The position numbers and the translations under genes were made by a program. 64,000 nucleotides of DNA. Origin: Planctomycetales bacterium 71-10. Lineage in GTDB: Bacteria; Planctomycetota; Planctomycetia; Isosphaerales; Isosphaeraceae. The stretch is from assembly GCA_001898385.1 (NCBI GenBank), contig MKTT01000073.1, positions 1 through 64,000 of the forward strand, in the 5' to 3' direction. Below the pieces are notes generated by a model. It saw only the letters and a program-made list of their open reading frames with translations. It searched no databases and was not told the origin of the DNA. Below are positions 2,412 through 5,037 of the stretch, piece after piece. How positions within the stretch are numbered: position 1 is the first letter of the stretch; each line of letters starts with the position of its first letter.

Positions 2412-2621
2412 GACTCGCATCCTCAGGGCGCCGACGCCGGCCGCACAGGTCCCGGCTGGGCCGCGCGCCGGCTCTTCCCCTCCCTTGTACAGGCGAGGGG
2501 CGGGCCGAGGAATAAGCCGGCGATGCCGCGCGAGGGATTCCGCCCGTTCGGGCGTCTCGGGGGATGTCGGCGGAGGATGCGTGGTTCGAAAAAGAAAAAA
2601 CCGGCCGCCGAAAGAGACCCT

Positions 2622-3255
2622 CACGACCGCCTCTCCCTCGGTCGTGAAAATCCCGGCCGACGGGCCGGTTGGCTCGCATTGTAGGGAACCGGACGATGGT
2701 CCAGAAAAGTGTGGCCGCCTCTCCCTCGGCCGCAATCTTCGGGATTCACCGCCGGTTGGATCAAACCGGTCGCGAGCACCGCCCGCCGCGACGACCTCTC
2801 CCTTCGCCGCGACGGACCGCATTCACGAACCGGTTGAATTGGAGGCTCGACGGGTCGCCTGGAGACCCGGAACCGTTGTAGGAAACCGGACGATGGTCCC
2901 GAAGGATGTGGCCGCCTCTCCCTCGGCCGCAGTCTTCGGGGTTCACCGCCGGTTGGCCGCTCGGCTCGACGCCCTCCCGGGCGGAACCTCTTGGATCAAA
3001 CCGGCCGCAAGCCGTGCCGCCGCGACGACCTCTCCCTTCGCCGCGACGATACGCCTCCACGAACCGGTTGGGTCGAGGACTCGACGGGCCGAGGCCCGGA
3101 GCCGGTGTAGGAAACCGGAGGCGATTCGGTGCGCCGCGGCCGCCTCTCCCTCGGCCGCCACAGACTTCCTCATTCCGCCGGTTGGATGAAACCGGTCGCA
3201 GATCCGACCCGCCGTGACGACCTCTCCCTTCGCCGCGACGGATCCTCTCCGCAAA
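2622..3255. repeat. Tandem array of stem-loops with an invariant CCTCTCCCT loop
   Basis: Seven hairpins share the identical 9-base loop CCTCTCCCT (minus strand AGGGAGAGG), at 2630-2638, 2718-2726, 2795-2803, 2915-2923, 3029-3037, 3143-3151 and 3221-3229. Stems are 7-8 bp and differ between copies while keeping pairing. For example CACGACCG/CGGTCGTG at the first is GCGGCCG/CGGCCGC at the sixth, a compensatory change. GGCCG-type and CGACGA-type stems alternate. Between them lie a second palindromic motif around AACCGGTT (CCGGTT-N6-AACCGG near 2752 and 3180) and a TGTAGGAAACCGGA box (about 2680, 2876, 3106). Together these define roughly three diverged units of about 200 bp in the fucI/hypothetical-gene spacer. 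No gene is assigned here. The identity of the element is unknown. Confidence 0.8.
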
Positions 3256-3326
3256 CCGGTTGGCCTGTTCGGGCTCGACGTCCCCCCGCCTTTGGTGCCG
3301 GTCGGGGTTTCGGAGCCGCGGTGTAG

Positions 3327-3370
3327 AAAGGGCGAGCGGGGGGTCGTGCGAGGCATCCCGCTCGCCCTTT
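3327..3370. terminator. Perfect 14-bp inverted repeat, possible terminator
   Basis: Positions 3327-3340 and 3357-3370 pair perfectly over 14 bp (AAAGGGCGAGCGGG and its complement) around a 16-base loop. The stem ends in A/T triplets on each side. It lies just beyond the stem-loop array and could end a transcript running through that array in either direction. Confidence 0.45.
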
Positions 3371-3831
3371 GGCGGGGCAATCGTGTAAAACGATCGTCGC
3401 CAGTGGGGTGGCTTCCTGGAAGTTCTTGTAGTCCGACGAATCCTCACTTACGGATCGTCGCAACCTTGGATCTCGTCTCGGTTTCCTTCGTCGGCTCGTC
3501 TTCGTTTCGACACCAGGGTCTATGGCAAAGGCAGTGCCAGAACCGAAATCCCGTCCCCGATCCGCCCCATCGAAGGGCCCTCCGGCCCGCCCGCCACGGC
3601 CCATTTCCAGGAGCCTCAAAAACTTAGGTCGACGAAAAAAAAGTAGCCCCGCCGGTCGAATCTCGGGGCCTGAAGAGGGCTCCAACATTTATCCATCGTG
3701 CCACCGCGACGCTTCGCACAAGATTCGGGCACGGGTTGCCGAAGACATCATCACGCCCCCGGTCGGAGGCTCCCGGCAAGCTCCCAGGCCCTTCCCGGGA
3801 GCTTTCGACCCTCGGAAGGACGATCGCCATC
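3371..3831. other. Intergenic stretch with no recognisable gene
   Basis: Short open frames exist here in several phases (for example one starting at ATG 3522), but none has a ribosome-binding site together with the codon bias of its neighbours. The stretch is locally less GC-rich and contains an A-run near 3636-3646. The promoter of the gene at 3832 is expected here, but no convincing -35/-10 pair was found. Confidence 0.4.
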
Positions 3832-5037
3832 ATGGACGAGTGCTCGCCGGAGAGATCCCGCCCCTTCGTCGCCCTCTTGGAGGCCCTGGCGTCCTGGCGA
3901 GAGGGGATCGCGGCCCCTCTCGAACGATGGATCGGCGAGGAACTGGACGCGGCGGGCTCGCCCCTGAGGCTCCCCCTGCGCGAGTGGGCGCCGGCGCTGG
4001 GGGCGATCGGGGAGGCCGGAAAGGCGCGGCCCGGCTGGCCCACGGCCGTCGACGAGCGGGCCACAGACTTCGTCCGCATGCTCCTCCGATTCTCCCGCCC
4101 CGACGGGACGACGGCGACGCTGGACGGCCATCCGTCTCGCCCGCGCGCGTTCTGGAAGGCGATCGCGGCGGCCTTCCCGGCGGGCGACGTCGGGAGGGTC
4201 CTCGACTGGTGGTTCCCCGGTCGCGACGTCGAATACGTCCCGCCGCCCCTGCCCGCCTGGTCGGCGGCCGATCGGGTGCTGGGGGCCCTCCGCGCCGATT
4301 GGACGAGACGGGGCGACTTGCTGGCGTTCGACCAGCGCCAAGGGGCGAGCACACGGATCGAACTCTTCGGCTCGGGCGTCTCGTGGCTGGGCCCGTGGTG
4401 GTCGACGACCGGCGATCGGACCGGCACCCCGGCGCGGGTGACGGCCTGGGGGACGAGTTCCAACGCCGACGTCGCCGAATGGTCCTTCGGCTCGGGGGAT
4501 CGCGAAGTCACCCGGCTGGCGCTCATGCTCCGGGGGCGTCGGCTGGCCCTGCTGGCCGACCTCCAACGATCGACCGACGGTGCGACGATGGAGCTGGACG
4601 TCGCCGCCGGCCTGACGCGGGAGCCCCTGCCCATCGCGGGCGCGTCGTCGTTCCGCCCCGGCAAGCCGGGGAAATCGGCCCAGGCGATCCTCCTGACGGC
4701 CGGCGAGGCCGACTTCGACGAGCCATCGCGGCGTCTCAAGCTCCGCGCCGCCTCGGGCGGCCGATGGCTCCCGCTGCTGGTCTCCTGGGACCACTCGCGG
4801 CATCGCAGGCCGCTGACCTGGGTCGAGTTGACCATCGCCGAGCAGGGGAAGCGATGCCCCAAGGACGTGGCCTGGGCCGCCCGGGCGAGCTGGGGACGGA
4901 ACGAGACCTTCGTCTTCTATCGCAGCCTGGCCGAGCCGGCGCGGAGGTCGTTCCTGGGATGCTCGACCACCGCCCGGCTGCTCGTCGGCCGATTCACCCC
5001 CGAGGGGGACGTCGAGCCCATCGTGACGCTCGCCTGA
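3832..5037 (+). CDS. Conserved-looking hypothetical protein (401 aa), unrecognised
   Basis: This 401-residue protein has no family I can name. It has the strong third-position GC of its neighbours and ATG 3832 follows GGAAGGA at 11 bases, so it is very likely real. The N-terminal third is helical and Trp-rich (WREGIAAPLERWIGEE; VLDWWFPGRDVEYVPPP). The C-terminal two thirds look like a beta-rich sandwich with repeated Arg/Leu strands (LALMLRGRRLALLADLQRS, TWVELTIAEQGK). There is no signal peptide or membrane segment. The beta-rich half is reminiscent of the non-catalytic sheet domain of heparinase-like lyases, but that is a weak impression. It ends six bases before a convergent small membrane gene. 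Confidence 0.75.
   Translation: MDECSPERSRPFVALLEALASWREGIAAPLERWIGEELDAAGSPLRLPLREWAPALGAIGEAGKARPGWPTAVDERATDFVRMLLRFSRPDGTTATLDGHPSRPRAFWKAIAAAFPAGDVGRVLDWWFPGRDVEYVPPPLPAWSAADRVLGALRADWTRRGDLLAFDQRQGASTRIELFGSGVSWLGPWWSTTGDRTGTPARVTAWGTSSNADVAEWSFGSGDREVTRLALMLRGRRLALLADLQRSTDGATMELDVAAGLTREPLPIAGASSFRPGKPGKSAQAILLTAGEADFDEPSRRLKLRAASGGRWLPLLVSWDHSRHRRPLTWVELTIAEQGKRCPKDVAWAARASWGRNETFVFYRSLAEPARRSFLGCSTTARLLVGRFTPEGDVEPIVTLA

Follow-up and report, generated by a model that had tools for sequence, protein, structure and literature searches.

A Predicted Sigma-54-Dependent RNA With Invariant-Loop Hairpins in the Isosphaeraceae

Introduction

Several described bacterial RNAs resemble the locus considered here in part. 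CrcZ of Pseudomonas is an Hfq sponge under the control of CbrAB and sigma-54 and offers A-rich Hfq sites, and small RNAs of alphaproteobacteria expose pyrimidine-rich CCUCCUCCC loops. The csrA gene is usually present as a single copy in model bacteria. The binding consensus of CsrA is A(N)GGAX (PMC4005645). GlmY/GlmZ and Qrr are sigma-54-dependent small RNAs with a -24/-12 promoter and an upstream activator site (PMC7073468, PMC10162802).

The window analyzed here is the first 64,000 nucleotides of contig MKTT01000073.1 from Planctomycetales bacterium 71-10, a member of the Isosphaeraceae. An earlier note, made from its sequence alone, had described an array of seven hairpins near one end. The reading that is considered probable is that this array belongs to a minus-strand RNA of approximately 920 nt under a sigma-54 promoter, representing an uncatalogued family of the Isosphaeraceae, in which GGGAGAGG loops would capture a partner and the array would act as a multivalent sponge. 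No Rfam family matched up to E = 1, and no paper on small RNAs of Isosphaeraceae was found among the open-access papers searched.

An Array of Hairpins Read From the Minus Strand

The window contains exactly seven copies of the motif CCTCTCCCT, all on the plus strand within 2630–3229, against an expectation of 0.88 in shuffled sequence (none of 100 shuffles reached seven). The corresponding hairpin units, all on the minus strand, lie at 3190–3261 (unit 1, with loop AGGGAGAGG at 3221–3229), 3113–3183 (unit 2, loop at 3143–3151), 2999–3069 (unit 3, loop at 3029–3037), 2884–2954 (unit 4, loop at 2915–2923), 2764–2835 (unit 5, loop at 2795–2803), 2687–2757 (unit 6, loop at 2718–2726), and 2599–2670 (unit 7, loop at 2630–2638), the last followed by a U-run. 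On the RNA strand the loop is identical in all seven, and each contains AGGGAG. The earlier account of two stem classes with boxes between them holds, and the AACCGGTT palindromes and TGTAGGAAACCGGA boxes prove to be the opposing strands of an outer helix by which every unit is closed.

Structure was evaluated on 30 hairpins from six species of the window’s genus, whose alignment folds into the outer helix AACCGG/CCGGUU and a stem of 16 bp, with 92.4% of cells paired and both partners altered in 14 of 22 pairs. Covariation reaches a score of 0.508, compared with 0.229 in shuffles (equaled in 0 of 500) and at most 0.18 in slid controls, and compensated stem differences among congeners include acgacta/tagtcgt, acgacga/tcgtcgt, and ggccg/cggcc. 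Together with the motif count, this covariation bears out the original description of seven hairpins with identical 9-nt loops on covarying stems. The same 30 hairpins settle which strand is the RNA, a question that the earlier note had left open. Read on the minus strand, wobble-type positions in the 16-bp stems comprise 72 G·U and only 15 A·C combinations, and although relatedness among the copies means that the 87 cases cannot all count as independent, the bias is evident; the minus strand is therefore the RNA strand, and the asymmetry rules out the plus strand.

The Larger RNA Element and Its 5′ Domain

The region from 2622 to 3255 that was first singled out does hold a real array, but it covers only the 3′ part of an element that extends to approximately 3513. 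The predicted non-coding RNA of about 920 nt (2590–3513, minus strand) runs from the promoter to the U-run and has a folding energy z-score of −4.2. Across the family the element is ordered as an upstream motif, a sigma-54 promoter, a 5′ domain with a CCUCGCACGACC loop, and one or more hairpins with a NGGGAGAGG loop, often followed by a U-run.

The conserved 5′ domain (3272–3415, minus strand), captured by models R2 and R3, has a mean column identity of 91% within the genus. Its helices covary: among 46 copies, 98.2% of cells are paired and 15 of 18 pairs show changes in both partners. Within it, a long hairpin (3327–3370, minus strand) with a covarying stem exposes the loop CCUCGCACGACC at 3342–3353, which is nearly invariant across the 46 copies. 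Downstream of the domain, hairpins with the apical loop NGGGAGAGG are present in 41 of the 46 copies and number from one to seven, and the octamer GGGAGAGG is invariant in these 41 loci. A U-run follows the last hairpin in many relatives, so that this hairpin probably doubles as a terminator. Judging from the sequence, window unit 7 would probably also serve as a terminator stem, as it precedes the U-run TTTTTTCTTTT (2590–2600, minus strand), the probable end of transcription.

Five domain copies (L140, L134, L136, L115, and L112) are without the GGGAGAGG hairpin, and the 5′ domain must therefore have a role of its own. These hairpin-less copies, possibly a second subtype of the RNA, are found partly in tandem (L134 and L136), and the genomes that hold them mostly carry a hairpin-bearing copy as well; two domains are likewise present in L114. 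The two loops could conceivably kiss, through pairing of CCUC with GAGG, but copies without the second loop retain the first, which argues against it.

Promoter and Upstream Motif

Ahead of the 5′ domain lies a predicted -24/-12 promoter, TGGCACTGCCTTTGCC (3524–3539, minus strand), from which transcription would start near 3513. Its pattern, TGGCAC-N5-TTGC, is the sigma-54 consensus (PMC12316311). It is conserved ahead of the domain in the alignment of six congeners and is found in 44 of the 46 family copies, nearly always 83–137 nt before the domain. The gene for sigma-54, rpoN, is present as a single copy in the window’s genome.

An expectation-maximization (EM) search further identified a motif shared by 44 of 44 copies, located 161–214 nt ahead of the -24 element; some of the scores are weak. 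In the window it is GTGCCCGAATCTTGTGCG (3715–3732, minus strand), a candidate site for a sigma-54 activator. In each congener genome the genus version of this motif matches exactly at a single site, the RNA locus, and no other promoter in these genomes is accompanied by it at zero mismatches. From this arrangement we infer that an enhancer-binding protein may act at the upstream motif to activate transcription of the RNA.

Distribution and Array Evolution

In the Isosphaeraceae, the covariance model of the 5′ domain finds a match in 39 of 45 genomes, representing 20 of 21 genera, and that of the hairpin matches 26 of the 45, directly downstream of the domain. The genomes compared include Singulisphaera acidiphila DSM 18658, Singulisphaera sp. 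GP187, and Tautonia sociabilis, and the RNA is present in the cultured species S. acidiphila DSM 18658, near 7.09 Mb of the chromosome, and T. sociabilis. Among 298 genomes of the class, the 5′ domain was not found in the approximately 250 from outside the family, in a search whose filters drop weak matches, so that distant relatives may exist beyond the family; some draft genomes are also incomplete. Two weak non-family matches (G187 and G256) were rejected as homologs because both conserved loops are absent, as was L151, a Gemmatimonadaceae bin in which the pattern occurs outside the element’s context. The earlier suggestion that the array is a structure read as RNA thus gains strong support from covariation, the sigma-54 promoter, the terminator-like end, and conservation across the family.

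Most genera have one GGGAGAGG hairpin, and the window’s genus has three to seven. Homologous arrays were detected by BLAST in all five other genomes of this genus, with 5, 3, 4, 5, and 6 intact loops, all identical. Genus g7 is mixed, with four hairpins in each of two genomes and a single one in another. A decayed extra unit with one changed loop base (CCTCTCCGT, plus strand) ends the array of G003 (L050:6298-6396), which indicates that arrays lose units too. Genus g6 of the family (G010, G027, G036, and G064) is without the RNA; csrA is retained there, and a search for rpoN succeeded in three of the four genomes.

Neighboring Genes

Of 28 loci examined, 21 have a divergent gene (3832–5034 in the window, plus strand) next to the RNA. 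The four genomes of g6 have neither this gene nor the RNA, and the four of g9 lack the gene but have the RNA. The encoded protein evolves fast and has no Pfam or NCBIfam match; other families of the class carry longer homologs. Structure prediction (pLDDT 90.4) gave the protein a heparinase III-like fold, which offered no clue to regulation, and this neighbor is not counted as part of the RNA system. On the other side, positions 2414–2600 of the window constitute a rearrangement breakpoint: here the array is followed by an L-fucose isomerase gene (fucI), and four congeners have a different conserved gene in that place.

Proposed Function and Alternative Explanations

In the probable reading, a signal sensed via a sigma-54 activator would lead to synthesis of the RNA, whose identical GGGAGAGG loops would then capture a partner, either an RNA-binding protein or another RNA. 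The loops vary in number from one to seven with their sequence unchanged, which fits titration of a partner. Since most genera have a single hairpin, the core function does not require multivalence, and tandem duplication to three to seven copies in the window’s genus may have turned the RNA into a multivalent titration device, or sponge. The 5′ loop CCUCGCACGACC would probably be a second, separate recognition site. More tentatively, and with somewhat less confidence than doubt, the RNA may represent a new class of multivalent Planctomycetota sponge RNA that is switched by sigma-54, whose GGGAGAGG hairpin is read by a dedicated protein or RNA and has been amplified in some lineages for capacity.

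The main alternative assigns the regulatory role to the 5′ loop, which as an antisense seed would pair with mRNAs in trans, leaving the GGGAGAGG hairpin mainly as a terminator and stabilizer and its duplication as incidental. The loop is indeed exposed, C-rich, and nearly invariant in the 46 copies, and it is kept where the GGGAGAGG hairpin is missing. In six genomes, however, its perfect complements are not in excess over a reversed-pattern control, and the invariance of the GGGAGAGG loop in every array unit is left unexplained, so this account appears rather doubtful.

The earlier note had instead proposed a CsrA decoy, in which the loops bind at least one CsrA paralog and free its target mRNAs, in the manner of CsrB/RsmZ in gammaproteobacteria. 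Parts of this proposal hold: csrA, whose presence the note had asked to be checked, occurs in nine copies in the window’s genome, the AGGGAG of all seven window loops formally satisfies A(N)GGAX, and the array looks like a multi-site sponge. The first loop base is A in both genera with arrays, where all loops read ANGGA, but the consensus A is missing in 28 of the 41 loop-bearing loci (first base U, G, or C), and of the four single-hairpin transcripts examined, three are entirely without A.GGA. The invariant GGGAGAGG moreover extends to GAGG, beyond what CsrA needs, and the loop exceeds the preferred hexaloop in length. Nor do the nine genes discriminate, since each of the 69 relatives carries several csrA copies, RNA present or not, with no link between csrA copy number and presence of the RNA; throughout the class, csrA gives 2 to 17 matches per genome. 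Since most single-loop relatives are without ANGGA, CsrA capture is probably not the ancestral function; it is possible in the genera with arrays, and as an explanation of the RNA it is unlikely.

The two remaining explanations carry very little weight. A cis-acting leader of the downstream gene would account for the position of fucI, which lies on the array’s strand and starts approximately 180 nt past it, but in congeners fucI maps away from the array, which is followed there by another gene, and the array closes with a terminator-like U-run; contradicted by synteny, this reading is highly improbable. Scarcely credible is the other possibility raised by the earlier note, a dispersed DNA repeat or once-coding sequence that expanded in place, for although the units are tandem copies crossed by long open reading frames, they show strong covariation and are conserved over 20 genera together with a promoter, and in eight arrays the unit spacings (77–135) do not keep to a multiple of three throughout, so that the array is not coding. 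A dispersed repeat is likewise contradicted by its confinement to one locus: a test for REP-like elements found no scattered copies, only the seven at the array, the longer pattern CCTCTCCCTYSGNCG is restricted to it in the whole 7.73-Mb genome, and it is the sole match there (G000) to the hairpin covariance model.

An RNA conserved over 20 genera, with a recognizable promoter and two nearly invariant loops, offers a handle on sigma-54 and RNA-based control in the Planctomycetota. It is possibly relevant to the control of the unusually many planctomycete CsrA paralogs, and its natural copy-number series, from one to seven hairpins, bears on how sponge capacity evolves.

Comparison With Known Systems

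In architecture, the array recalls CsrB/CsrC and RsmX/Y/Z, where several hairpins also expose the same GGA-containing loop and the number of sites varies by species. It differs from them in its fixed nonamer loop, its sigma-54 promoter, and its conserved 5′ domain, and most relatives have a single loop without ANGGA. As there is no Rfam match and CsrA is only a candidate partner, the element is regarded as a new RNA family, of a general type already known, and not as a member of CsrB/RsmZ. The alphaproteobacterial RNAs with CCUCCUCCC loops similarly expose a short conserved loop motif, but in the present case the RNA is read from the strand opposite the CU-rich one, and its loop is GGGAGAGG.

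CrcZ shares with this element a sigma-54-type promoter and a likely protein-titrating role, without any match in sequence or structure and without GGGAGAGG hairpins. GlmY/GlmZ and Qrr are similar in having a -24/-12 promoter and an upstream activator site, here a candidate one; they differ in that the present RNA matches no Rfam family, and we know of no array of identical hairpins in either group. By analogy with these systems, the RNA would work most like a sponge of the CsrB/RsmZ or CrcZ kind placed under a promoter of the GlmY/GlmZ, Qrr, and CrcZ type.
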